From positions 62,001 through 126,000 of the forward strand of contig NZ_FNDT01000009.1 in the NCBI RefSeq assembly GCF_900099735.1: a DNA stretch of 64,000 nt, read 5' to 3'. Made by a program: the position numbers and the translations under genes. Shown piece by piece: positions 14,863-28,310 of this stretch (its first letter is position 1; each line of letters starts with the position of its first letter). This DNA comes from Arthrobacter subterraneus (GTDB taxonomy: Bacteria > Actinomycetota > Actinomycetes > Actinomycetales > Micrococcaceae). Below the pieces are notes generated by a model. The model had not been told where the DNA came from and ran no database searches. It worked only from the letters and a program-made list of their open reading frames with translations.

Positions 14863-16959
14863 GTGGCCCCCAGCTCTGAATACACAGCCCGCCATCTTTC
14901 CGTACTCGAGGGACTTGAGGCGGTACGCAAGCGCCCCGGAATGTACATCGGATCCACCGACTCACGCGGGCTGATGCACTGCCTGTGGGAAATCATCGAT
15001 AACTCCGTCGACGAGGCGCTCGCCGGGCACGGCCAGAACATCACCGTCATCCTCCACGCTGACGGCTCGGTTGAGGTGCACGACGACGGCCGTGGAATAC
15101 CGGTGGACGCGGAACCCAAGACAGGGCTCAGCGGAGTCGAGGTGGTCTTCACCAAGCTGCACGCCGGCGGAAAGTTCGGTGGCGGCTCCTACACCGCCTC
15201 GGGCGGCCTCCACGGTGTCGGCGCGAGTGTGGTCAACGCGCTCTCCGCCCGGCTCGACGTGCAGGTGGACCGGGGAGGCAAGACGTACCAGATGTCCTTC
15301 CGCAGGGGCGAGCCGGGGCGCTTCGCGGACGGAAGCAAGCCCTCACCGACAGCAAAATTCGCCCCGTTTGTAGACAGCTCCCGCCTCGAAGTGGTGGGCT
15401 CTGCCAAACGGGGAGTGACCGGGACCAGGATCCGGTACTGGGCGGACCGCCAGATCTTCACCCCCGACGCCAAGTTCTCCTACGAGGAACTGCAGGCGCG
15501 TGCGCGCCAGACATCATTCCTCGTGCCCGGACTGCGCCTGACGCTGCGGGACGAACGCGCCCTGCCCGGCACCGACGGGGTGGTCGAGGAAGTCTTCCAG
15601 CACGACGGCGGCATTTCCGAGTTCGCTGAATTCCTCGCCATTGATCACGGGGTCACCGACGTGTGGCGCCTGCAGGGTTCCGGCCGGTTCAAGGAATCCG
15701 TGCCCGTTCTCGACGAGCAGGGCCACAGCCGGATCACGGAGATCGAGCGTGACTGCGAGGTGGACATCGCGCTCCGCTGGGGCATCGGCTATGACACAAC
15801 GGTCAAGAGCTTCGTCAATATCATCGCCACGCCCAAGGGCGGAACCCACCAGGCGGGCTTCGAGCAGGCACTGCTGAAAACCTTCCGTAAAGCAGTCGAA
15901 TCCAACGCGCGCAAGCTCAAGGCGGGTAACGACAAGCTGGAGAAGGACGATGTCTTCGCCGGCCTCACCGCTGTCCTTACCGTACGCCTGGCTGAGCCGC
16001 AGTTCGAAGGCCAGACGAAGGAAATCCTTGGAACCTCGGCGGTACGGGCGATCGTGGCGAAAGTGGTCGAAACGCAGATCCAGGCCCGGCTGAGTTCCCC
16101 GGCGCGCGGAGACAAGGCCCAGGCGGCTCTCCTCCTTGAAAAGGTCGTCGCCGAAATGAAGTCCCGCGTGTCCGCCCGGGTGCACAAGGAGACCCAGCGC
16201 CGGAAGAACGCGCTGGAGACCTCCTCCATGCCCACGAAGCTGGCCGACTGCCGCATTGACGACTCCGACCGCTCCGAGCTTTTCATCGTCGAGGGTGACA
16301 GCGCGCTGGGAACAGCCAAACTGGCCCGCTCCTCCGATTACCAGGCGCTGCTTCCCATCCGCGGGAAAATCCTGAACGTGCAGAAGGCCTCGGTCGGTGA
16401 CATGCTCTCCAATGCCGAGTGCGCCGCACTGATCCAGGTGGTCGGTGCCGGCTCGGGCCGCAGCTTCCAGTTGGATGCTGCCCGCTACGGCAAGGTCATC
16501 CTCATGACTGACGCCGATGTAGACGGTGCGCACATCCGCACCCTGCTGCTCACGTTGTTCTTCAGGTACATGCGCCCGCTCGTGGATGCCGGCCGGGTCT
16601 TCGCCGCTGTCCCGCCGCTGCACCGGGTTGAAATCCTCAACGCAGGCAGCAAGGCCAACGAGACCGTTTATACCTACTCCGACCAGGAGCTGCATCGGCT
16701 GCTTGCCACCCTCGAACGGGAGGGCAAACGCTACAAGGAGCCCATCCAGCGCTACAAGGGGCTGGGGGAGATGGACGCGGGACAGCTGGCGGAAACCACC
16801 ATGGATCCCCGCCACCGCACTTTGCGCAGGGTCCGGATCCAGGAGGCCGAAGCGGCGGAGCGGGTCTTTGACCTGCTGATGGGCAGTGATGTCGCTCCGC
16901 GGAAGGACTTCATTGTTGCTGGAGCAGCGTCCCTTGACCGCGAGCGGATCGACGCCTGA
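14863..16959 (+). CDS. parE: DNA topoisomerase IV subunit B (type IIA, ATPase/TOPRIM subunit)
   Basis: A 698-aa type IIA topoisomerase B subunit. Seen are the GHKL ATPase motifs (Asn47 in DNSVDEAL, DDGRGIPV, GGLHGVGASVVNALS), the transducer domain, the TOPRIM motif with Glu477 (VEGDSALG), PIRGKILNVQKA, and the metal-binding DADVDGAHI. It probably pairs with the ParC-like A subunit encoded at 25.8-28.2 kb. The assignment to ParE over GyrB rests on this pairing and on the A subunit lacking a canonical GyrA box. No gyrA follows it, as would be expected for gyrB near oriC. The start is a GTG with a weak ribosome site. Confidence 0.88.
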   Translation: MAPSSEYTARHLSVLEGLEAVRKRPGMYIGSTDSRGLMHCLWEIIDNSVDEALAGHGQNITVILHADGSVEVHDDGRGIPVDAEPKTGLSGVEVVFTKLHAGGKFGGGSYTASGGLHGVGASVVNALSARLDVQVDRGGKTYQMSFRRGEPGRFADGSKPSPTAKFAPFVDSSRLEVVGSAKRGVTGTRIRYWADRQIFTPDAKFSYEELQARARQTSFLVPGLRLTLRDERALPGTDGVVEEVFQHDGGISEFAEFLAIDHGVTDVWRLQGSGRFKESVPVLDEQGHSRITEIERDCEVDIALRWGIGYDTTVKSFVNIIATPKGGTHQAGFEQALLKTFRKAVESNARKLKAGNDKLEKDDVFAGLTAVLTVRLAEPQFEGQTKEILGTSAVRAIVAKVVETQIQARLSSPARGDKAQAALLLEKVVAEMKSRVSARVHKETQRRKNALETSSMPTKLADCRIDDSDRSELFIVEGDSALGTAKLARSSDYQALLPIRGKILNVQKASVGDMLSNAECAALIQVVGAGSGRSFQLDAARYGKVILMTDADVDGAHIRTLLLTLFFRYMRPLVDAGRVFAAVPPLHRVEILNAGSKANETVYTYSDQELHRLLATLEREGKRYKEPIQRYKGLGEMDAGQLAETTMDPRHRTLRRVRIQEAEAAERVFDLLMGSDVAPRKDFIVAGAASLDRERIDA

Positions 16960-17004
16960 CCGGGAAAGCTCCTGCAGCGGCGGCCCCAAGGAAGCCCGAA
17001 GGAA

Positions 17005-17985
17005 TCAGCCGAGCAAACCGGGCGCTATCAGCAGCGCTGTCGGAACGGTGAGCAGCAGGGCCGAGGTTCCCAACGCCGCAAATTGCTGGACGGGAGTAAG
17101 CGGCCGCTGTGGCTGCAGCAGCCGGCGCAGCCGGTGAACAGTCGAAAGGGAGCCGTCGTCGGCGTCGGATTCGGCGTCGGATTCCGGGTCCATCCCGGCG
17201 TCGGACGGTGCCGGTGTTTCGGTACCCGGACCATGCCGCCCGGTAGCGACGACGGCGATGGCGCCGACCAGGGTTTCATGGTCCACCTGTTTGACCGCCA
17301 CATCGTCGGCCAGCATCTCGATGAGTTCGTTGACCGCACGCTGGGCCAGCCGCGACGTCGGGAGCCAGGGGAGTGCGGCACGCCATGCTGCGAATGCCCA
17401 CAACAGCAGGTGATGCCGCTGGCTCAGGTGGGCCCGTTCATGCAGGAGCACTGCCCGCAGTTCCTCGTCCGAGAGCAGGCCCATCAGGCCGTCCGAGAGG
17501 ACCGTGACCGAGCGCGCCCCTCCCGGAAGGCAGTAGGCAACGGGTGACGGGTGCTTGATCACGAGAGTGGAGGGGCTGGTGCGTGACGGTGAGCTCAGCA
17601 GGTTCAGCAGATTGCGGTGCCGGCGCCTTTGAGCCCTGATCCGGGCGTAGGTGATGAGCAGCGTGAAGACAAGATGCGCGGTCAGCAGGCTCGCCGCACT
17701 GAGGGCAAAGACGTGGACCAGGCCCAGGGTGTCCGCCGGCCGGTTGTTCACCATCACGTCCCACAGCCCGCGCAGCGCCTGAAGGAGATTGTCTCCGAGA
17801 GGTTCCAGGCCCCAGACCAGCATGGCGCCGATCATCGAGAGACCGCCGGCCAGCGCGATGGCCTGCCACAGGATCATCGCTGTGAACGGCGAGCGTGAAG
17901 GCCACTGGGCCCGTGACAGCGCGATCGGCGCAGGCCACGCCAGGACCACGGCAAGCGCGGCCAGGAAGTGGGAGGCCCAGAACAT
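17005..17985 (-). CDS. M56 family membrane metallopeptidase (BlaR1/MecR1-like)
   Basis: A 326-aa membrane protein with about four hydrophobic segments (residues 1-22, 35-60, 86-112 and a C-terminal one) and the zinc motif HERAH at 182-186 followed by LSQRHH. This is the gluzincin core of the BlaR1/MecR1 family. No C-terminal penicillin-binding sensor domain is present: after the protease there is only an acidic linker (SDAESDADDG) and a last hydrophobic stretch. It follows the BlaI-type repressor gene by six bases, so the two form an operon. In the family, the protease inactivates its repressor on a signal. What is sensed here is unknown, and the divergent cytochrome bd genes suggest a respiratory signal (inference). 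Confidence 0.87.
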   Translation of the reverse strand: MFWASHFLAALAVVLAWPAPIALSRAQWPSRSPFTAMILWQAIALAGGLSMIGAMLVWGLEPLGDNLLQALRGLWDVMVNNRPADTLGLVHVFALSAASLLTAHLVFTLLITYARIRAQRRRHRNLLNLLSSPSRTSPSTLVIKHPSPVAYCLPGGARSVTVLSDGLMGLLSDEELRAVLLHERAHLSQRHHLLLWAFAAWRAALPWLPTSRLAQRAVNELIEMLADDVAVKQVDHETLVGAIAVVATGRHGPGTETPAPSDAGMDPESDAESDADDGSLSTVHRLRRLLQPQRPLTPVQQFAALGTSALLLTVPTALLIAPGLLG

Positions 17986-17991
17986 GGGAGG

Positions 17992-18363
17992 TTAGCTGCT
18001 GCCCAGGAGCCGTCGGAGGGTGCGGGCCTCGCTCTCGGAAACACTGCCGATGAACCGGGCGAGCACTGCCTCACGGTCAGGGGCCGTCACCAGTACCTCA
18101 TGCATGAGTTCAGCGGTGTGGTCTTCGCGGCTGGTCACCGCGCGGTAGCGGTGAGGGCGGGTGTCCCGTTCACGCTCCACCAACCCTTTTTTCTCCAGCC
18201 GGGACAGTACGGTCAGCACAGTGGTGACCGCGAGTTCCTTGCCCTCCGTGGTCCCCTCCGGCGCAAGGGCCAGAGCATCACGAAGAGCATTGGCGGTCAT
18301 GGCCTCCTGGGTGCCCCACAGCAGGTCCATCACTGTGCGTTCGAGTTCACCGAGCGTGGCCAT
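17992..18363 (-). CDS. BlaI/MecI/CopY family transcriptional repressor
   Basis: A 123-aa winged-helix repressor when started at the ATG at 18363, which has an AAAGGA site at good spacing; an upstream in-frame ATG at 18432 has none and adds an unrelated N-terminus. The DNA-binding domain covers about 1-75 (GELERTVMDLLW, TTVLTVLSRLEKKGLVERE), followed by a short dimerisation region. Family members bind TACA/TGTA palindromes as dimers. Three such sites lie in the 210-bp spacer to cydA. The downstream gene is an M56 protease. Likely targets are its own operon and cydABDC. Confidence 0.9.
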   Translation of the reverse strand: MATLGELERTVMDLLWGTQEAMTANALRDALALAPEGTTEGKELAVTTVLTVLSRLEKKGLVERERDTRPHRYRAVTSREDHTAELMHEVLVTAPDREAVLARFIGSVSESEARTLRRLLGSS

Positions 18364-18437
18364 TCTTATTCCTTTGTTGATTTCCCGATGCCGGCCGACG
18401 GGTGTATTGCGATGCAATCCCGGTACCGGCAACTCCT

Positions 18438-18443
18438 AATCTA
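18438..18443 (-). promoter_or_regulatory. Candidate -10 box of the blaI operon
   Basis: On the minus strand these bases read TAGATT. At 17 bases upstream the -35 position falls on the edge of operator O1 with a poor match. A transcript from here would have a leader of about 65-70 bases. Confidence 0.35.
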
Positions 18444-18461
18444 CAACTTTTTCGCGCAAGG

Positions 18462-18478
18462 TTCTACGCCATGTAGAA
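18462..18478. promoter_or_regulatory. BlaI-type operator O1
   Basis: TTCTAC-N5-GTAGAA, a 6+5+6 palindrome. It is placed over the -35 region of the candidate blaI promoter. The right half reads TGTAGAA, the core expected for BlaI/CopY-type sites. Confidence 0.75.
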
Positions 18479-18494
18479 GTGGAGGGAAAAGTTG

Positions 18495-18511
18495 TTCTAC
18501 GATGTGTAGAA
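18495..18511. promoter_or_regulatory. BlaI-type operator O2
   Basis: A second TTCTAC-N5-GTAGAA palindrome. Its centre is 33 bp from that of O1 and 24 bp from that of O3, so it lies between the two divergent promoters. Confidence 0.75.
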
Positions 18512-18518
18512 GAAATCT

Positions 18519-18535
18519 TTCTACAGCCTGTAGAA
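18519..18535. promoter_or_regulatory. BlaI-type operator O3
   Basis: The most symmetric of the three sites: TTCTACA-GCC-TGTAGAA, 7+3+7. It covers the candidate -35 box (TCTACA, 18520-18525) of the cyd promoter. Confidence 0.78.
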
Positions 18536-18548
18536 AACTTGCTGTAGT
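18520..18548 (+). promoter_or_regulatory. Candidate cydA promoter
   Basis: TCTACA (18520-18525, four of six to TTGACA) and TGTAGT (18543-18548) are 17 bases apart. Transcription would begin near 18555, about 20 bases before the GTG. The -35 box lies wholly inside operator O3, so repressor binding would block RNA polymerase. Confidence 0.45.
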
Positions 18549-18573
18549 CCTGTTCCGGATGAATAGAGGAACC

Positions 18574-20148
18574 GTGGAAGCACTCGAGATTGCCCGGTGG
18601 CAGTTCGGCATCACCACCGTCTACCACTTCCTGATGGTTCCACTGACGATCGGACTGGGTCTTCTCGTCGCCGTGATGCAGACCCTCTGGTTCCGGACCG
18701 GCCAGGAACACTACCTGCGCATGACGAAGTTCTGGGGGAAGCTGTTCCTCATCAACTTCATCATGGGCGTGGCTACCGGTTTGGTGCAGGAATTCCAGTT
18801 CGGGCTTGCCTGGAGCGAATACAGCCGGTTTGTCGGGGACGTCTTCGGGGCACCGCTGGCCATGGAGGCGCTGCTGGCCTTCTTCGTCGAGTCGACCTTC
18901 CTGGGCCTGTGGATCTTCGGGTGGCAGCGGCTGCCCCGCATCCTCCACCTCGGCTCCCTCTGGGCGGCGGTCCTGGCCTCCGTGTTCTCCGCCTACTTCA
19001 TCATCGTTGCGAACTCCTGGATGCAGCACCCGGTCGGCGTGGAACTTGTGGACGGACGTGCCCGGATGGTGGACGCCTGGGCGGTTTTCACCAACAACAC
19101 CGCGCTGGTTGCCTTCACCCACACGGTGTTCGGCGCCCTCGCCGTAGCGGGCGGTTTCCTTCTCGGCATCGCCTGGTACCACCTCTGGAAGCGGCGCCGG
19201 GACGGCCTGGACACGGTCGACGACGACGGCGCGGTGATCATCGGCGGAGCCTCCACCCGTTCGCGCGGAGTTATCGACCACCGCGTCTGGCTGCGCTCGG
19301 CACGCATCGGCGCCGTCGTCGCGCTTGTCTCTTTCGCCGGAACCGCGGTTTCCGGGGATCTGCAGGCAAAGCTGATGTTCGAACAGCAGCCCATGAAGAT
19401 GGCGGCAGCGGAAGCGGCCTGCCACGACGGCACGGGTTTCTCGGTCCTCTCGGTCGGCAACCTCGGCTCGCAGGACTGCGATGACATTGTCGCGGTCTTC
19501 GAGGTGCCGGGCCTGCTGTCCTTCCTGGCCAACGGCGATTTCACCACCGAGGTCAAGGGCGTCAACACCCTCCTGCCGGAGTACCAGGAAAAATACGGCA
19601 AGACCCTGCCCGATGACCCCATTTACGGCGAGCGCGCAGGCATGACCATCGACTACCTGCCGGTCATGGAGGTCACCTACTGGGGCTTCCGGATCATGAT
19701 CGGGTTCGGCGGGCTGGCGGCCTTCGCCGCACTGGTGGCCCTGTGGATCCTGCGGAAGGGAACGGTCCCCGAATCGCGCTGGCTGATGCGCCTGGCCGTC
19801 TTCGGGATCCTGGCGCCGTTCGGAGCCAACTCGGCCGGCTGGATTTTCACGGAAATGGGCCGCCAACCGTTCGTCGTTGCTCCGAACCCGGATCCCAGCG
19901 GCATCGACGGGGTATTCATGTTCACGGCGGCGGCAGTGTCACCGGGGGTTTCCCTGGCGGAACTCGTCTTTTCGCTGATCGCGCTCACGCTCGTGTACGC
20001 GGTGCTGCTGGTTGTCGAAGTGAAGCTGCTGGTCATCTACGTGCGGGGCGGGGTTGCCTCCGCCATGCCGGAGCTGGCCGAGAAGCACGACGACGACGGT
20101 GGCCCGCACGGAAAGGACGACGACGATGTCCTCGCCTTCGCCTACTGA
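18574..20148 (+). CDS. cydA: Cytochrome bd oxidase subunit I
   Basis: A 524-aa quinol oxidase subunit in the membrane. The frame is open far upstream, but family alignment and an AGAGGA site (18565-18570) favour the GTG at 18574 (VEALEIARWQFGITTVYHF). Haem ligands and proton-path residues fall at His18, Glu98, Glu106 and His183, each near the E. coli positions 19, 99, 107 and 186. The quinol loop is of the short type. GWIFTEMGRQPFVV is conserved near the C-terminus, which ends in a His/Asp-rich tail. The subunit holds haems b558, b595 and d and reduces oxygen with high affinity. It is first in the cydA-cydB-cydDC operon and divergent from the blaI pair. Confidence 0.95.
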   Translation: MEALEIARWQFGITTVYHFLMVPLTIGLGLLVAVMQTLWFRTGQEHYLRMTKFWGKLFLINFIMGVATGLVQEFQFGLAWSEYSRFVGDVFGAPLAMEALLAFFVESTFLGLWIFGWQRLPRILHLGSLWAAVLASVFSAYFIIVANSWMQHPVGVELVDGRARMVDAWAVFTNNTALVAFTHTVFGALAVAGGFLLGIAWYHLWKRRRDGLDTVDDDGAVIIGGASTRSRGVIDHRVWLRSARIGAVVALVSFAGTAVSGDLQAKLMFEQQPMKMAAAEAACHDGTGFSVLSVGNLGSQDCDDIVAVFEVPGLLSFLANGDFTTEVKGVNTLLPEYQEKYGKTLPDDPIYGERAGMTIDYLPVMEVTYWGFRIMIGFGGLAAFAALVALWILRKGTVPESRWLMRLAVFGILAPFGANSAGWIFTEMGRQPFVVAPNPDPSGIDGVFMFTAAAVSPGVSLAELVFSLIALTLVYAVLLVVEVKLLVIYVRGGVASAMPELAEKHDDDGGPHGKDDDDVLAFAY

Positions 20149-20166
20149 GCCTTTGCCTACTGAGCC
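20137..20166 (+). repeat. 15-bp tandem duplication at the cydA stop codon
   Basis: TTCGCCTACTGAGCC (20137-20151) is followed at once by TTTGCCTACTGAGCC (20152-20166), with one difference. The cydA stop lies in the first unit and is repeated in frame in the second. Confidence 0.75.
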
Positions 20167-20250
20167 TTTGGCTGGTGGGTCCCCATCTGCTGAGCCCACA
20201 CCTCGTCACCTGCCGAACCGGCCCCCGTCCCGCGGAAAGGAATCCCGCGC

Positions 20251-21273
20251 ATGACCGACATGCTTCCCACCCTCTGGTTCATCCTGATCGCAGTGCTGTG
20301 GACCGGCTATCTCTTCCTTGAGGGATTCGACCTCGGCGTCGGCATGCTGATGAAACTGTTCGCCCGGACCGACCGCGAACGGAGGGTGCTCCTCAACACC
20401 GTGGGACCGGTCTGGGACGGCAACGAGGTATGGCTGGTCACCGCCGTCGGGGCAACCCTCGCGGCTTTCCCGCTCTGGTACGCCTCGCTGCTCTCCACGC
20501 TGTACCTCCCGTTCGTCTTTGTACTGCTGGCCCTCATCTTCCGTGCCGTTGCTTTTGAGTACCGCGGGAAGATGAACAGCGAGCGCTGGCGCGGGCATTG
20601 GGACCGGGCGATCTTCCTCGGCTCATTCACCTCCGCGGCCGGGATCGGCGCAGCGCTCGCCCTGACCACCACCGGCCTGCCGCTCAACGAAAACGGGGAC
20701 CGGGTGGGCGGCCCGTTTGCGTGGCTGACGTTCGATGCACTGCTCGGCGCGGCCGCCGTCGTCCTCTTCTGCCTCGCCCACGCGCTGGCGTTCCTGGTCC
20801 TCAAGACTGACGGTCCCATCCGGGAGCGGGCGCGGCGCCTGCTGGTGAGGCTGCTGCCGTTCGCGCTGGTGCCGCTGCTCTTCTGGGCGGCGAAGATCTA
20901 CGTTGCCGGTGGAACGGTCTGGACCGGGCTCGCCCTTCTCCTCGCGGTGGCGGCTGCCGCAGCCTCGTGGTTCGCCGAGCGGTCCTCCCGTGACGGGTGG
21001 GGTTTTCTCTGGCTGGGCGTGGCGCTCGCGTCGTCGCTGGCCTGCATCTTCGGTTCCGTGTACCCGGTGGTGCTGCCCTCAACGATCAGCGAGGCGTTCA
21101 ACCTCACCGTGGTGAACGCTTCCAGCTCGCCGTACACCCTCGGCCTGATGAGCATCGTCGCCGCGCTCGGCGTTCCGCTGGTGCTCGCCTACCAGGGGTG
21201 GACGTACTGGGTCTTCCGGAAACGGGTCACCGAGCAGAGCATCCCGGACGCCCACTCGGTAATCCCGCTGTGA
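20251..21273 (+). CDS. cydB: Cytochrome bd oxidase subunit II
   Basis: A 340-aa membrane protein with about eight or nine hydrophobic segments. Family signatures are the N-terminal LFLEGFDLGVGML and GPVWDGNEVWLV. It pairs with CydA to form the bd oxidase. The ATG has an AAAGGA site nine bases upstream. A 102-bp gap follows cydA, and the stop codon overlaps the start of cydDC (GTGA), which indicates coupled translation. Confidence 0.95.
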   Translation: MTDMLPTLWFILIAVLWTGYLFLEGFDLGVGMLMKLFARTDRERRVLLNTVGPVWDGNEVWLVTAVGATLAAFPLWYASLLSTLYLPFVFVLLALIFRAVAFEYRGKMNSERWRGHWDRAIFLGSFTSAAGIGAALALTTTGLPLNENGDRVGGPFAWLTFDALLGAAAVVLFCLAHALAFLVLKTDGPIRERARRLLVRLLPFALVPLLFWAAKIYVAGGTVWTGLALLLAVAAAAASWFAERSSRDGWGFLWLGVALASSLACIFGSVYPVVLPSTISEAFNLTVVNASSSPYTLGLMSIVAALGVPLVLAYQGWTYWVFRKRVTEQSIPDAHSVIPL

Positions 21274-24200
21274 TCGAGCGGTTCCTGGCCAGGGGCCCCG
21301 CCGGCACCGCTGTTCCGGCCGCGCCCATCTACATCCTGGGTATTCTTGCCGCGGCCAAGGCAGCCGGCCTGGTCCTGGTCGCGGAAGCCCTTGCCCGGGG
21401 CATCGCAGCGCTCGCCGCCGGTGTTGTGCCGGGTACGGACCTCCTCTGGCTGGGGCTCGCAGGGGCAGCGCTCCGCGCTGTCGCCGCCTGGGCGCAGCAG
21501 GGCACCGCCCAGCGCCTGGCGCACGGGGTGAAGGAACGGCTGCGCCGCGAAGCTCTGGAGCGCGTACTCGCCGATGGCGGCCCGCCGGGCGCCACATACG
21601 GGACCGGTGCGCTCAGCGTGCTGCTCACACGCGGCCTGGACGGGCTCGACAAGTACCACACCCAGTACCTGCCGGCTCTGATCACGTGCGCGGTGGTTCC
21701 GCCCCTCGTCGGGGCGCGGATCCTGGCCGCTGACTGGGTGAGCGCCGTCGTCATTGTCCTCACCATCCCACTGATCCCGGTCTTCATGGTGCTCATCGGC
21801 TGGCATACCCAGGACCGGACAGCCGAGGCCCGAGCGTCGCTGGACCGGCTCTCCGACCACCTGCTGGAACTGGCCCGGGGGCTGCCGGCGCTGGTGGGGC
21901 TGGGCCGTGCCAGCGCCCAGACCCGTGCGCTCCAGGACATCGGCGCCGGCTATTCGCGGCGGACGATGGAAACCCTGCGGGTCGCGTTCCTGTCCTCGCT
22001 GGCTCTGGAGCTCATCAGCACCATCTCGGTCGCCGTCGTCGCCGTGTTCGTCGGGGTGCGCCTCATCCATGGTGAGGTGGGGCTCGAGGTCGGGTTGCTC
22101 GCCCTCATCCTCGCGCCCGAGTGCTACCTGCCCCTGCGGGATCTCGGCGCCGCGCACCACGCAAGCGACGACGGCCTTGCGGTAGGGCGCAGCGTCCGGA
22201 CGATCATCGATGCGCCCGCCGCCGGCTGGACAAGGGTACCTACCGCGGGCGGGACAGAAGCCGCCCGCACACAGTACGACGGCGGTCCCGCCGGTGCGCA
22301 GAACCTCACCCTCCGGTTCGACAGCGCAGAGGCGCCCCTGGTGAGCGGTCTCAGCTTCACACTGGCCGCCGGGTCAGTTACCGCCCTGCGCGGCGCCAGC
22401 GGCTCGGGGAAGTCCACGCTCATGGGCCTGCTCGCGGGAGTGCGGCAGCCCGGGCTGCAGGTGGAAGGGACAGTCCAGCCGCTTCCCGGACGGCTCGCGT
22501 GGGTGCCCCAACACCCGGAGCCGCTGATGGGCACTGTCCGTGACGAACTCGCCTTCTATGCCGCTTCCGCGCCCGGCATGCAACCCCGTGAAGAGTCCCT
22601 CGCCGCGGCGCTGGCAGCGGTAGGCGGCCCGCAGCTGCTCGGCAGGTCCACGGGGGAACTCAGCCCCGGCGAGCTGCGACGCCTCGCGCTTGCGCGCGCA
22701 CTGCTGCGCCTGGGGCCGGACGGCGGAACCCTTCTGCTCGATGAGCCGACAGCCCACGTCGACGAGGCCACCTCGGACACCATCCGGGACACTGTTCGAC
22801 GGCTGAGCGGGACTGTGACGGTGCTCCTCATCGCGCACGATGAGGCAACAGCCGCGCTCGCCGACACCACCATTGACCTGGGAATTCCGGTCCGGGCGGC
22901 CGGGTCTGTAGAGCACACCCATCGGGTGGGCGTATCCGGCAGCAACGCGGGCGAGGCAGCGCTCTGTCCGCCCGCCCGCTTGGAAGAGGACGGGCAACGG
23001 GAGCGTCCTGAGCCGGCCGACGCGCGGGCCTTGCCCCAGCGGCCCGGCGCGAACAGCAGGCTCCAGCCCGGCGGCGGGAATCTCGGCACCGGTCTGCGGA
23101 CGGCCCTACGTGCGCTTGCCCTGGTGCGTCCCTGGTCGCCGCGGTTCCTGGCGGCCCTGGCGTTCGGGACGGGCTCCTCCGCCTTCGCCGTCGCACTCAC
23201 AGCGCTCTCGGGCTGGCTGATCGTCCGCGCGTCCGAGCAGCCGCCCATCCTCTACCTGCTCGCCGCCATTGTTGGAGTGCGCTTCTTCGGCATCGGCCGG
23301 TCGTTGCTGCGCTACTGCGAGAGGCTCTGGCTGCACGGCAGTATCCTTCAGAGCGCCGACAGCATCCGGGTCCGGCTGTGGCAGGCGCTGCTCGGCAGGG
23401 CGGAGTCCTGGCGTTCTCTCTCCCGTGGTTCAGGCGGCATCGAACGCCTCGTGGGAGATATCGACGAGTTGCGCGACACGGCTGCGCGGGCAGTCTTCCC
23501 TCCGCTCACTGCCGTCTTCACCGGCTTTGCCGCACTGATCACGACGGCGCTGCTCCTGCCGTCAGCTCTCGGCTGGCAGCTCTTCGGGACCCTGATGGGG
23601 TTACTGGCCGCACCGGCCGCCGCGCTGCTCGCAGAACGCAGGGCGGGAGCGGCGGGAATCGCGCTGCGGGCCGCCTCCCTCGCGGAAACCACCGGCCTGC
23701 TGCGGGCTGCGCGCGACGTCAGCGTGAACGGGCTGTCCCACAGGGCACTGGACCGCCTGGCGCAGCTGGAATACCACGCAGCCCGCGGCCTGCGGCGCAC
23801 CTCGTGGGCCGCCGGCATCGGACAGGCGCTCGTCATCCTCGGCTGCACCACCGCCGCGATCGCGATCCTCACCGGTTCGGGCGGGCAGTCCGCCGAGGTG
23901 GTGGCCGTCGTCGTCCTGATGCAGCTTGCGCTCATCGAGCCGCTGGGGCTCGGCGTGGCCGCCGTCCAGCAGTGGGCGCCCTTCGGAGCAGTTGCGGGGC
24001 GGCTCGACGAGCACCTGGAAGACACTTCCGCGCAACGGCCGGTCGACCGTTTCCCTGAAGCGGAAACGGTGTGCGAAGCCGGGGCGCCGGCGCTGGCCCT
24101 GGTCGATGCCGCAGTCGGCTACGAGCCCGGGGTCGACGTGGTCCAGGGTGTGACACTCGAGATCCGCAAAGGTTCCTGGACGGCGCTGACGGGCCCTTCG

Positions 24201-24764
24201 GGGAGCGGCAAATCCACGCTGATCGGAGCACTGCTCGGCTTCCTGCCGCTCAGCCGGGGCAGGTTCCTGGCCGCGGCCGAGGCTCACGGACCGGCGCACG
24301 TTCCGGTCCGGCCCGCCTGGTGCCCGCAGGATGGCTACCTGTTCGATTCGACAGTGCGGGCGAACCTGCTCCTCGCCTGCGCCGATCAACCGGCGACCGA
24401 AGACGACCTCTGGCGCGTCCTGGACGCCGTCGGGCTGGCGGACACGGTGCGGCGGCGCGGCGGGGGCCTGGAGGCCAGGATCGGAGCCGGTGGGAGCAGG
24501 CTGTCGGGCGGTGAGCGGCAGCGTCTCGCGGTGGCCCGCGCACTGCTTACACCGGCGCCGGCCCTGATCCTCGATGAACCCACAGCGCACCTCGATTCCG
24601 ACGGCGCCGCCGGGCTCCTGCGGGACCTGCGTGCCGGCCTGGGCGAACGCCCCGTACTGCTTGTCACGCATGACCGGGCGGAGGCACTGCGCTGTGACAC
24701 CGGCGTCGAGCTTTCCGCCGGTGGCCAGGGCAATCACCTACGCTGGGAGCATGCCTACTCCTGA
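21270..24764 (+). CDS. cydDC: Fused ABC transporter CydDC
   Basis: A 1164-aa protein formed of two complete ABC half-transporters. The GTG at 21270 overlaps the cydB stop by four bases and gives the expected N-terminus (VIERFLARGPAG); the frame is open further upstream inside cydB. The CydD half has GASGSGKST (near 375), LSPGELRRLALARAL and LLLDEPTAHVDE. After a Pro/Arg/Glu-rich linker (about 550-610), the CydC half has GPSGSGKST (near 977), LSGGERQRLAVARAL and LILDEPTAHLD. E. coli CydDC is needed for bd oxidase assembly; thiol and haem substrates have both been proposed. Fused cydDC genes are known in Streptomyces. Confidence 0.93.
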   Translation: MIERFLARGPAGTAVPAAPIYILGILAAAKAAGLVLVAEALARGIAALAAGVVPGTDLLWLGLAGAALRAVAAWAQQGTAQRLAHGVKERLRREALERVLADGGPPGATYGTGALSVLLTRGLDGLDKYHTQYLPALITCAVVPPLVGARILAADWVSAVVIVLTIPLIPVFMVLIGWHTQDRTAEARASLDRLSDHLLELARGLPALVGLGRASAQTRALQDIGAGYSRRTMETLRVAFLSSLALELISTISVAVVAVFVGVRLIHGEVGLEVGLLALILAPECYLPLRDLGAAHHASDDGLAVGRSVRTIIDAPAAGWTRVPTAGGTEAARTQYDGGPAGAQNLTLRFDSAEAPLVSGLSFTLAAGSVTALRGASGSGKSTLMGLLAGVRQPGLQVEGTVQPLPGRLAWVPQHPEPLMGTVRDELAFYAASAPGMQPREESLAAALAAVGGPQLLGRSTGELSPGELRRLALARALLRLGPDGGTLLLDEPTAHVDEATSDTIRDTVRRLSGTVTVLLIAHDEATAALADTTIDLGIPVRAAGSVEHTHRVGVSGSNAGEAALCPPARLEEDGQRERPEPADARALPQRPGANSRLQPGGGNLGTGLRTALRALALVRPWSPRFLAALAFGTGSSAFAVALTALSGWLIVRASEQPPILYLLAAIVGVRFFGIGRSLLRYCERLWLHGSILQSADSIRVRLWQALLGRAESWRSLSRGSGGIERLVGDIDELRDTAARAVFPPLTAVFTGFAALITTALLLPSALGWQLFGTLMGLLAAPAAALLAERRAGAAGIALRAASLAETTGLLRAARDVSVNGLSHRALDRLAQLEYHAARGLRRTSWAAGIGQALVILGCTTAAIAILTGSGGQSAEVVAVVVLMQLALIEPLGLGVAAVQQWAPFGAVAGRLDEHLEDTSAQRPVDRFPEAETVCEAGAPALALVDAAVGYEPGVDVVQGVTLEIRKGSWTALTGPSGSGKSTLIGALLGFLPLSRGRFLAAAEAHGPAHVPVRPAWCPQDGYLFDSTVRANLLLACADQPATEDDLWRVLDAVGLADTVRRRGGGLEARIGAGGSRLSGGERQRLAVARALLTPAPALILDEPTAHLDSDGAAGLLRDLRAGLGERPVLLVTHDRAEALRCDTGVELSAGGQGNHLRWEHAYS

Positions 24765-25731
24765 GCTGACACCACCCGACCAGCAGCTGAGCTGGCGGGC
24801 GATCACGGACGCGGACATCGACGGCTGGGAGGCCCTGCTGCGCCGCATGGCCGGGGAGGACAAGCCGGACTGGATCGAGCAGCGCGCCGATCTCGAGGAA
24901 GTGCTGCACGCGTCCAAGAACAATCCGGCGCTGGACACGGTGATGGGTTTCGACACCGCTGGAATACCGCGCGCCTTCGGTCGGATCAGTGCCAATGCAG
25001 GGTCCAGCCTTGCGCACGCCTTCGGCGGGGTTGACCCTGCATGGCGCCGCCGTGGAATAGGCCGCGCCGTCCATGAGTGGCAGATCGAGCGGACCCGCAG
25101 GCGGTTCGCTGACGCGGGAATCACGGGAGGTGTGGTCCGCACCTACGTCGAGGAAAGCAACACCGGCCATCAGGCGCTCATGACGGCTGCCGGTAACACC
25201 ATCGTGCGCTGGTTCACGGAGATGACCAGGGGCCTGGCCGCTGACATCCCCGAAGTGGAGCTGGATCCGGAATTCGAAATCGCCACCTTCAGCGACGATC
25301 TCTCGGAAGCAGTGCGCCTGGCCCACAATGAAGCCTTCCAGGACCACTGGGGAAGCGAACCCCGCGACGAGGAAAGCTGGCACTACACGGTGACCCACCC
25401 CGAGTTCCGGCCGGACTGGAGCCTCGCGGTGATCGATTCCTCTTCTGATGAGGTCGCCGCCTACCAGATCGCCAGCTACGACCCGGAGTCCAGGGAACTG
25501 GTGGGACACAGCGAAGGCTATACCGATCTCCTGGGGGTCAGGCGCGCCTGGCGCGGCCGGCGGCTGGCGCCGGCACTCCTCACCGAAGCGATGCGCAGAT
25601 TCAAGGCCGACGGCATGGAGAATGCCGGGCTCGGCGTGGACACCGAGAACCCGTCCGGCGCCCTCGGACTGTACGAACGCCTGGGCTACACCCCTACCCG
25701 CCGCTCGATGGCGTTCGAGCGCAGTCTCTGA
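24751..25731 (+). CDS. Tandem-domain GNAT acetyltransferase
   Basis: A 326-aa protein with two GNAT domains. The ATG at 24751 follows a GGGAG site and overlaps the end of cydDC by 14 bases; an open frame further upstream runs inside cydDC and is not used. The acetyl-CoA loop of the N-terminal domain reads VDPAWRRRGIGRAVHEW (about 92-108), and that of the C-terminal one LGVRRAWRGRRLAPALL, followed by NPSGALGLYERLGYTP. The double-GNAT plan resembles mycothiol synthase MshD, but the sequence is not close enough for me to assign that role. The substrate is unknown. Confidence 0.85.
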   Translation: MPTPELTPPDQQLSWRAITDADIDGWEALLRRMAGEDKPDWIEQRADLEEVLHASKNNPALDTVMGFDTAGIPRAFGRISANAGSSLAHAFGGVDPAWRRRGIGRAVHEWQIERTRRRFADAGITGGVVRTYVEESNTGHQALMTAAGNTIVRWFTEMTRGLAADIPEVELDPEFEIATFSDDLSEAVRLAHNEAFQDHWGSEPRDEESWHYTVTHPEFRPDWSLAVIDSSSDEVAAYQIASYDPESRELVGHSEGYTDLLGVRRAWRGRRLAPALLTEAMRRFKADGMENAGLGVDTENPSGALGLYERLGYTPTRRSMAFERSL

Positions 25732-25743
25732 AGCCGCCGGGAT

Positions 25744-25759
25744 CCGGGCATCCGCCCGG
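25744..25759. terminator. Short stem-loop between convergent GNAT and parC genes
   Basis: CCGGGC-ATCC-GCCCGG forms a 6-bp GC stem with a 4-nt loop in the 29-bp spacer. No T-run is present. Confidence 0.4.
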
Positions 25760-25760
25760 G

Positions 25761-28238
25761 CTACACCGGGTTTGGCCCGATGGCGTCCACCGGCTGTGAC
25801 AGCGCCACACCTGAACCATCGCGCCGGCCGTGCTCTGTCGGCAGTGCACGCGCAACGCCGGTGGCAGAGACGGCCCGCGCCGGCCCGTGCCCTGCCCACG
25901 CGAGGCTCAGATGGTCCTCACCCTTCAGGAAACGGTGGCACCGCACGCCCCCGGTCGCCCTGCCCTTCGCCGGGTATTCGCTGAACTCCGTCACCTTGAC
26001 GGAACCGGGCACGGTTCCCGGCAGGGACTCGCTGCCGGCAGCAATGGTCACCACGACGGCGGCAGGATCCTGCGCGCGCACGGCACCGAAGAACACGACG
26101 GCGTCGCGCTCGGCCAGCTTGATGCCCGCCACGCCGCCGGCCAGGCGTCCCTGCGGCCGCACCAGGGAGGCAGGGAACCGCAGCAGCTGTGCTTCCCTGG
26201 TAATGAAGACGAGGTCGTCGGCATCATCCGCAGCCGCGAGGCCCACGACGCTGTCTTTCGGTTTGAGGGTGACTGCCTCCCAATCGTCCCGGTTGAGCGG
26301 GTAGTCGGGGACCACCCGCTTGACAACGCCCTGGGCGGTGCCGAGCGCAAAAGGCTTGTCCAGGGGAACCAGCCCCACCAGCACCTCGCCGCGCTCAAGG
26401 GTGATGAACTCCTTGACGGAGACTCCGCCGGCCAGGTTGGGGATTCCGTTGGTGGGCGGTAGCGCCGGCATGTCCACGACCTGTAGCCGCACCATGCGTC
26501 CGGACGAGGTCAGGGCGCCTATTTCTGCGCGTGCAGTGGTTGCCACCACCGACGTGAAGGCGTCGTGTTTCACCCGCTGTCCGCCGTCGCTGATCTGCTC
26601 CCGGCCGGTGGTGCGCGCCAGCTGCCCGCACGTGGAGAGGATGACCCAGCACGGGTCATCGGCGATCTCCAGGGCCAGCGGTGCCTTGGCGCCGTTGCCT
26701 GCAGGGCTGGGCAGAACGGTGCCCTTCAGCGGAGCGCTCGCCTCCGATTCCAGCAGAACCGTGCGCCGCGGCGTGGCGAACTGCTCAGCAACAGCAGCGA
26801 GCTCATCGGAGACCAGCGCGCGCAGCCTCTGCTCCGACCCCAGGATCTCTTCGAGTTCGGCGATTTCCCGGCGCAGCTCGTCCTGCTCCTTCTCCAGCTC
26901 GATGCGGGAGTACTTGGTGAGCTGACGCAGGCGGAGCTCGAGAATGTAGTTGGCCTGGATTTCCGTCAGGTCGTAGATGGACATGAGCCTGGTCCTGGCT
27001 GCCGCCGCCTCGTCCGAGGACCGGATGATCTGGATGACCTCATCGATGTCCACGATGGCGATCAGCAGGCCCTCCACGAGGTGGAGGCGGTCCTTCTTCT
27101 TCGCGAGCCGGTAGGACGTGCGGCGCCGGACCACGGAAATCCGGTGGCTGATGTATACCTGCAGCAGTTCCACGAGCCCCAGGGTGCGGGGCTGGCCGTC
27201 AACGAGGGTCACATTGTTGATGCCGAAGGAGTCCTCCATCGGCGAATACCGGTACAGCTGCGCCAGCACCGCGTTCGGGTTGAATCCGTTCTTCAGCTCA
27301 ATGACCAGCCGCAGTCCGTGCGTCCGGTCCGTCAGGTCGACGATGTCGGAGATGCCCTGCAGCTTCTTTGCCGTTACGGCATCCTTGATCTTTTCGATCA
27401 CCTTCTCAGGGCCCACCATGTACGGCAGTTCGGTGACCACCAGGCCGGTGCGCCGGGCGGAGAGCTGCTCGACCTCAACCGCGGCGCGGGTCTTGAAGGA
27501 GCCCCTGCCGGTCGCGTAGGCGTCCCGGATGCCATCCAGCCCGACGATCCTTCCGCCGCTCGGGAGGTCCGGACCCGGCACGAAGCGCATGATGTCCTCG
27601 AGCGTGGCCTCCGGGTTGTCGATCAGGTGCCGGGCCGCGGCGATCACCTCGCCGAGGTTATGCGGGGCCATGTTGGTGGCCATGCCGACAGCGATCCCCG
27701 TTGCACCGTTGACGAGGAGGTTCGGGAAGGCGGCGGGGAGCACCTCGGGCTGGGTGAGCTGGTTGTCGTAGTTCGGAATGAAGTCGACCACGTCCTCACC
27801 GAGGTGGTCGGTCATGGTCAGTGCCGCCGGAGCGAGCCGCGCTTCGGTGTAGCGGGCGGCGGCAGGGCCGTCGTCGAGCGAACCGAAGTTTCCGTGCCCG
27901 TCAATGAGGGGGAGGCGGAGGGAGAAGTTCTGAGCCATGCGCACCATGGCGTCGTAGATGGCGGCGTCACCGTGCGGGTGGAGCTTGCCCATCACCTCGC
28001 CGACAACCCGGGCGGATTTCACGTGCCCGCGGTCCGGCCGCAGACCCATGTCCGTCATCATGTACAGGATTCTGCGCTGCACGGGCTTCAGCCCGTCCCG
28101 GGCGTCAGGGAGGGCGCGGGAATAGATCACCGAGTAGGCGTACTCCAGGAAGGAGCCTTCCATCTCGGAGGTGACATCGATGTCGATGATCTTCTCGGTG
28201 TAATCCATATCCGGTGGTGTGGCTTGGCGCCTGGCCAT
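25761..28238 (-). CDS. parC: DNA topoisomerase IV subunit A
   Basis: An 825-aa type IIA topoisomerase A subunit started at the ATG at 28238; an upstream in-frame ATG gives an unrelated N-terminus. The winged-helix domain holds the DNA-cleaving Tyr130 in [11 protein letters not shown], with [25 protein letters not shown] split over residues 67-91 as in the family, then a coiled-coil tower and a beta-pinwheel C-terminal domain. A canonical GyrA box (QRRGGKG) is not seen; the nearest segment reads [10 protein letters not shown]. This supports ParC over GyrA. Its partner parE lies 11 kb away on the other strand. Confidence 0.9.
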
Positions 28239-28310
28239 GGTGTGTCGGGTCCTTCGGCAGCTGATTGTTGACGGCAGGCATGCTTGCTGACGGGAGAAGC
28301 AGCCGCCCAC

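Follow-up and report, generated by a model that had tools for sequence, protein, structure and literature searches.

An autoregulated BlaI-type repressor, working with a BlaR1-like protease that has no beta-lactam domain, very probably controls a regulon of respiration and haem genes through TTCTAC-N5-GTAGAA palindromes, three of which form an array between blaI and cydA. This reading builds on the sites, their positions and their conservation, on gene identities by family match and on the co-inheritance of repressor and sites, all of which are observed directly; binding, repression and proteolysis are what we infer from them.

Organisation of the blaI–cyd locus

In the window, that is, the whole 64-kb stretch of DNA that was analysed, a repressor–protease pair on the minus strand stands back to back with the cytochrome bd genes:

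17005..17985, minus strand: BlaR1-like membrane zinc protease (M56/M48 type), 326 aa, without a C-terminal penicillin-sensor domain
17992..18363, minus strand: blaI, BlaI/MecI-type repressor, 123 aa (Penicillinase_R, E = 1.1e-21)
18574..20148, plus strand: cydA, cytochrome bd subunit I (PF01654, E = 1.9e-150)
20251..21273, plus strand: cydB, cytochrome bd subunit II (PF02322, E = 3.8e-97)
21285..24764, plus strand: cydDC, a single ORF with CydD and CydC halves, start approximate (TIGR02857, TIGR02868)

The family domain spans the whole of BlaI (PF03965, 77.7 bits against a cut-off of 22.6, residues 4-120 of 123), and the sole match among PDB sequences at E <= 0.001 is 2g9w (E = 2.5e-17), which we take to be M. 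tuberculosis BlaI (Rv1846c). The protease carries the membrane-zincin features of an HExxH motif and a distal Glu, and scores above the Pfam cut-off for M48 (41 bits, cut-off 20.3) and below it for M56 (22.7 bits, cut-off 31). No penicillin-binding sensor domain of Pfam is found at the C-terminus of its 326 residues, and the structure model predicts a helix (298-323) as the C-terminal end. Its sequence has no PDB match at E <= 1, and a Foldseek search with the model returned nothing below E = 0.001, the best hit being BlaR1 at 1.2e-3. Cys152 of the protease is nearly invariant. The cydA reading frame starts with GTG at 18574, with an alternative in-frame ATG at 18559, and in the cydDC fusion TIGR02857 (CydD) covers residues 15-532 and TIGR02868 (CydC) residues 609-1130, both above cut-off.

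The blaI–protease pair lies between genes for a gyrase/topoisomerase B subunit and a topoisomerase A subunit (14863-28310 of the window), with cydABDC and a GNAT gene as its other neighbours, and neither a beta-lactamase nor a PBP2a gene is found at the locus between these topoisomerase genes. Pairs that are separated from cydA in other genomes still adjoin a topoisomerase B-subunit-like gene. A second BlaI-family protein of the home genome (L130, G000:C57; 38% identity) is encoded on a contig of 11.7 kb, where the sequence upstream of its gene is different, and a third Penicillinase_R protein (C17) scores only 23.6 bits.

A predicted three-operator array between blaI and cydA

Three exact TTCTAC-N5-GTAGAA palindromes span 74 bp of the intergenic region, which also holds a candidate blaI promoter element:

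18438..18443, minus strand: predicted blaI -10, TAGATT, at 18-nt spacing to O1
18462..18478, no strand: O1 TTCTACGCCATGTAGAA, blaI-proximal operator (predicted)
18495..18511, no strand: O2 TTCTACGATGTGTAGAA, cyd-side operator (predicted)
18519..18535, no strand: O3 TTCTACAGCCTGTAGAA, cyd-proximal operator (predicted)

The three palindromes reported in an earlier note on this DNA are all present at those positions, and they are the only matches to the motif at <= 2 mismatches in the entire window; 100 dinucleotide shuffles of it averaged 0.24 matches, with 2 as the highest count. The palindromy of O3, previously given as 7+3+7 bases, extends further, to 8+3+8 (18518-18536). An Rfam search of 17800-18800 returned no RNA element. 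We regard the array as a real and strongly conserved regulatory element.

A scan of CydA relatives, of which we analysed the best 80 of 587 loci (nearly all labelled Arthrobacter or other Micrococcaceae), found that the 400 bp upstream of cydA hold one or more exact sites in 80/80 and two or more sites at <= 1 mismatch in 79/80. The blaI–protease pair adjoins cydA in 76 of these best 80, and none of the 80 has a site at <= 1 mismatch outside the cyd promoter. The two cyd-side sites, corresponding to O2 and O3, lie 23-25 bp apart from start to start in 66/79 loci, and where at least three sites are present (53 loci among the best 80) the next one towards blaI follows at 21 to 244 bp. Among the 212 cyd-region sites picked at <= 1 mismatch from these best 80 loci, 206 are exact; the conservation of the arms in this set is partly a selection artefact, since the sites were picked at <= 1 mismatch. 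The five central bases are variable except for a purine after TAC (A 49%, G 50%, n = 212), and of the three operators only O3 fits the TACA/TGTA wording given earlier for BlaI/CopY repressors.

The arrangement on the blaI side is informative about its promoter. TAnATT stands exactly 18 nt past O1 in 42 of the 53 loci with at least three sites (among the best 80 of 587), and this fixed spacing places the right arm of O1 at the -35 of blaI, in agreement with the placement of O1 suggested earlier. The companion proposal, that O3 covers the cyd -35 box, is not supported: the aligned cyd loci (best 80 of 587) contain no conserved -10 for cydA downstream of O3, and no promoter turned up when 18340-18600 was scanned for the sigma-70 consensus.

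Association of the operators with blaI

In four of the best 80 of 587 loci (L053, L057, L073 and L076) cydA has no neighbouring blaI, and each keeps two exact sites; the genomes concerned carry a close BlaI elsewhere, at 80-87% identity. Five distinct loci with a separate blaI (L133-L136 and, from a further congener, L242; L245 shares its site with L135, and the two count as one) have retained the protease and have one exact operator 76-149 bp upstream. In the separated configuration, a reading that covers the genomes of L133-L136 and not that of L242, one operator travels with blaI and the pair stays with cydA (4 loci). No such site, even at <= 2 mismatches, accompanies three BlaI-family paralogues of 37-40% identity (L138-L140). 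In one genome (G028) a BlaI of 62% identity is encoded beside cydA, yet there is no exact site there and none at its own blaI promoter. In other Micrococcaceae, where the earlier note had proposed to look for it, the motif is strongly conserved at cydA and blaI, and at the level of conserved sites this supports control by BlaI of both its own operon and cyd.

Predicted operators at distant genes

Background was estimated with a reversed-motif control, with shuffles of the window, and with reversed or permuted motifs in the fetched loci. The home genome contains eight exact sites, against none for the reversed motif: three at blaI–cyd and one each at hemQ (chlorite dismutase family, followed by a ferrochelatase gene), the flavohaemoglobin gene hmp, qcrC, a ResB/CcsA pair and a gene for a 111-aa membrane protein, all but the first group lying away from the locus. 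A further 13 sites have one mismatch, 10 of them intergenic and three inside genes; the latter (L026, L027 and L042) were not counted as targets. The intergenic ones lie upstream of ctaE, ctaB, the ABC-ctaA/sufR divergon, sucC, a Cg1360-like gene preceding atpB, a ResA-CcdA-ResB operon, CtaG/CopD, a 199-aa gene before a DUF1775 gene and a gene for a 122-aa membrane protein, and between UbiB-like and multicopper oxidase genes. At <= 2 mismatches the home genome yields 80 matches against 138 for the reversed motif, and since this does not exceed the control, two-mismatch matches were not taken into the regulon. No beta-lactamase gene is among the own-genome targets scanned.

Two small proteins have no assigned family. 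The 111-aa protein (L031:3645-3980, minus strand; also L238, L246, L250, L252, L305 and L318) contains two hydrophobic stretches and matches no family in Pfam or NCBIfam; its gene repeatedly has an exact operator just upstream. The strongly hydrophobic 122-aa protein (L038:3605-3973, minus strand; also L306, L327 and L333), likewise without a family match, is encoded downstream of an operator in several genera and also in family f6.

These distant sites are conserved. In a sample of 38 genomes, 24 congeneric (our own included) and 14 from other families, every congener has 3-11 exact sites, totalling 155 against seven for the reversed motif, and the 14 genomes of other families have none. A gene-first search of the 24 congeners found a one-mismatch site (ATCTACGAAWTGTAGAA) upstream of 25/25 copies of ctaE, an exact site upstream of 24/25 copies of qcrC, a site upstream of 23/23 copies of hemQ (22 exact; one genome has no hemQ match) and a one-mismatch site upstream of 24/24 copies of ctaB. 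The spacers of these sites vary between copies. The right arm at ctaB is always GTAAAA (24/24), and most other sites have GTAGAA. The atp operon has a site in 11/24 congeners at <= 1 mismatch and in 13 at <= 2, one of which (L203) looks like chance. About half of the congeners have the atp operator (L201-L212, upstream of the Cg1360-like gene); the more distant ones lack it, a pattern that would fit a loss or gain within one clade. As controls, five reversed or permuted motifs had no match in the upstream windows of ctaE-qcrC, hemQ, ctaB and atp; over the whole fetched loci their only matches were two in the ctaB set, and the motif itself gave 49 (ctaE-qcrC), 23 (hemQ), 11 (atp) and 24 (ctaB). 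Sampling that started from the sites added four loci in which an exact site accompanies an hmp gene sharing 44-46% identity with the home copy.

The positions of several sites suggest how they might act. At qcrC and atp the right arm of the site together with the next T reads TAGAAT, and at ctaB, in the rows shown, TATGAT (in some TATGCT) follows the end of the site after 3 or 17 nt. Judged from these promoter-like sequences, the sites at blaI, qcrC, atp and ctaB overlap predicted -35 or -10 elements and so occupy blocking positions.

Rhodopsin genes carry the predicted operator

Sampling by site led to one bacteriorhodopsin-like gene, and a family search found such genes in 5/38 same-genus genomes and none in the home genome. 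In all five (L299-L303) an exact operator precedes the start by approximately 85-110 bp; the genes stand in four different neighbourhoods, one of them common to L301 and L302. Four of the sequences have the D-T-E and retinal-lysine pattern, which we take to be that of outward proton pumps. One rhodopsin promoter (L300) has an array of two or three sites; elsewhere arrays were seen at cyd–blaI only.

Distribution in other genera and families

In another genus of the same family (G099) there are 15 exact sites, against none for the reversed motif, and they were examined as 14 fetched sites plus the blaI site. They lie by hemQ, ctaB, redoxin/ccdA, ABC/sufR, CtaG/CopD, CopC, SURF1, 111-aa, 122-aa and PNPOx genes, and one has a succinate dehydrogenase cytochrome b gene 259 bp away on one side and a nucleotidyl transferase gene on the other; one exact site is inside a gene (L314) and two have no assigned target (L315-L316). 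The sites of G044 are by hemQ, hmp, ccs, the 111-aa protein gene and a PNPOx gene. In family f6 (G054 and G070) exact sites are found by CtaG, Usp, 122-aa protein and unassigned genes, and not by hemQ or ctaB. Some exact sites thus have no clear respiratory gene beside them, namely those at PNPOx, Usp, amidohydrolase, 111-aa and 122-aa protein genes.

Sites and repressor tend to be present or absent together. Kin with an orthologue (G099 and G044; G054 and G070) have 5-15 exact sites, and three genomes without a BlaI match (G085, G086 and G100) have none. In family f19 the orthologue is present with 1-2 exact sites in each of four genomes, two of which have none beyond blaI. Overall, 10/11 genomes with an orthologue have sites, against 0/16 without, in a Fisher test on a sample that is biased because 8 of the 11 were added after a blaI palindrome had been seen and 3 of the 16 after no BlaI match had been seen. 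In an order-level sample of 79 genomes, 31 have a BlaI match; the blaI–protease–cydA layout recurs in families f6, f7, f14 and f19, and 4/9 loci of f7 and f14 have a perfect palindrome with TACTAC or TACGAC arms upstream of blaI.

Proposed mechanism and alternative explanations

We propose that the adjacent BlaI-type repressor would bind O1, O2 and O3 as operators. At O1 it would sit on the -35 element of the blaI–protease promoter, thereby regulating itself, and the O2-O3 pair would govern cydABDC. The same repressor would reach ctaE-qcrCAB, ctaB, the ABC-ctaA/sufR divergon, hemQ-hemH and the cytochrome c maturation genes, as well as CtaG and copper-protein genes, hmp, the atp operon, sucCD and, where present, rhodopsin. 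At its targets a repressor dimer would block RNA polymerase, and cleavage of BlaI by the BlaR1-like membrane zinc protease on a membrane or respiratory signal would let the targets rise together. What that signal is can be guessed at: a respiratory block, nitric oxide, a low proton-motive force, or the haem or redox state. The earlier proposal, of one repressor for both its own operon and cydABDC, is supported at the level of conserved sites and was too narrow: the motif marks a wider set of respiration and haem genes.

The narrower scope, in which BlaI serves its own operon and cydABDC and the distant matches arose by chance or are read by some other factor whose site is similar, would fit the confinement of two- and three-site arrays to cyd–blaI and one rhodopsin promoter (L300), and the failure of two-mismatch matches to exceed the reversed-motif control. 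We regard it as very unlikely, given that the distant sites lie between genes and persist, with changing spacers, across 24 congeners, that they recur at hemQ, ctaB, ccs and suf genes in G099 and at hemQ, hmp and ccs in G044, and that the best 80 of 587 cyd loci have no sites at <= 1 mismatch outside the cyd promoter. The motif is assigned to BlaI by genomic association, which also leaves room for an unlinked transcription factor that reads the palindrome and has blaI as one of its targets. Against such a factor stand the TAC..GTA core, which resembles the BlaI type, the separated blaI–M56 pair, which has its own site in five loci as autoregulation predicts, and the joint absence of BlaI and sites in G085, G086 and G100. 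Binding of M. tuberculosis BlaI at cyd and atp promoters, as reported in PMC5473688, speaks against it too, and we hold it highly improbable.

BlaI/MecI proteins are repressors as a rule, and the sites lie on predicted -35 or -10 elements at blaI, qcrC, atp and ctaB; both points count against a protein that activates respiratory genes from these sites. A dual role would be conceivable at the cyd pair, where no -10 was found, but transcription of Rv1303 is lowered by mycobacterial BlaI (PMC12565901), and we give activation very little credence. That the pair is a beta-lactam resistance regulator with respiration genes as side targets is suggested by the family name, by the repression of blaC by mycobacterial BlaI, and by the rise of blaI-blaR and cydAB under a beta-lactam plus clavulanate in M. 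tuberculosis (PMC12565901 and PMC5473688). The 326-aa protease, however, has no penicillin-binding domain, and no beta-lactamase gene is found between the flanking topoisomerase genes or among the own-genome targets scanned, so that this explanation, too, appears remote.

Beyond the BlaI-controlled respiration and haem regulon, we tentatively entertain a broader idea, to which we incline slightly less than evenly: that a protease-inactivated BlaI-type repressor may be the master switch of energy-converting membranes in Micrococcaceae, jointly adjusting the bd and bcc-aa3 branches, the supply of haem, haem-o/a and cytochrome c, ATP synthase and a light-driven proton pump, with the protease sensing failing respiration from within the membrane. 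Respiration might then be the older job of actinobacterial BlaI-BlaR, one that mycobacteria have too (cyd, atp), and beta-lactam control a specialised use.

Comparison with known systems

Staphylococcal BlaI/MecI with BlaR1/MecR1 differs from the present system, where there is no C-terminal penicillin sensor and the targets are respiratory; the core spacing of the staphylococcal operator is one base shorter than that of TTCTAC-N5-GTAGAA. The CopY/TcrY copper repressors share the Pfam family, and several targets here are copper-protein or oxidase-assembly genes, but BlaI stays below the CopY_TcrY equivalog cut-off of NCBIfam (28.9 bits against 121.95). Rex and ArcA are further respiratory regulators, and belong to other protein families than BlaI. 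SenX3-RegX3 resembles our system in its control of cyd, PMC5874750 and PMC7924339 placing RegX3 at cydAB/cydB; it differs in protein family and has no proteolytic switch of the kind proposed here.

The closest counterpart would be mycobacterial BlaI-BlaR (Rv1846c-Rv1845c), which appears alike in sequence (the pairwise 2g9w match), in its cyd and atp targets and in its sensorless protease. According to PMC5473688 (eLife 2017), which cites Sala 2009, BlaI of M. tuberculosis occupies the promoters of cytochrome bd and of ATP synthase, and mycobacterial BlaR has no sensor domain; the atp operon is named as a BlaI target (PMC5874750), the Rv1303 promoter is bound and Rv1303-atp transcription lowered (PMC12565901), and the regulon includes atpH and sigC (PMC8265638). 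Further targets named in M. tuberculosis are blaC, sigC and ftsQ (PMC8265638, PMC12565901), which sets the two systems apart. In the literature searched, qcr, ctaE, ctaB, hemQ, cytochrome c maturation, hmp and rhodopsin are not named as mycobacterial BlaI targets, and the full target list and operator of Sala 2009 may overlap more.

The earlier note knew of no description of the system in this group. As far as Micrococcaceae are concerned that agrees with the literature searched, which yielded no report, but the BlaI–cyd link and the sensorless BlaR have a precedent in M. tuberculosis, as stated in PMC5473688. The three-operator array, the wider regulon and the rhodopsin target appear to be new, no description of them having been found in that literature. 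By analogy, the mycobacteria as a second lineage support a respiratory role of BlaI. What was an isolated mycobacterial fact, BlaI at cyd and atp, is here widened to a base-exact comparative regulon in Arthrobacter, a harmless genus that is easy to work with, and takes in the two oxidase branches, the supply of haem and cytochrome c, and rhodopsin; this suggests a purpose for sensorless BlaR-like proteases, and makes what they sense testable with respiratory inhibitors.
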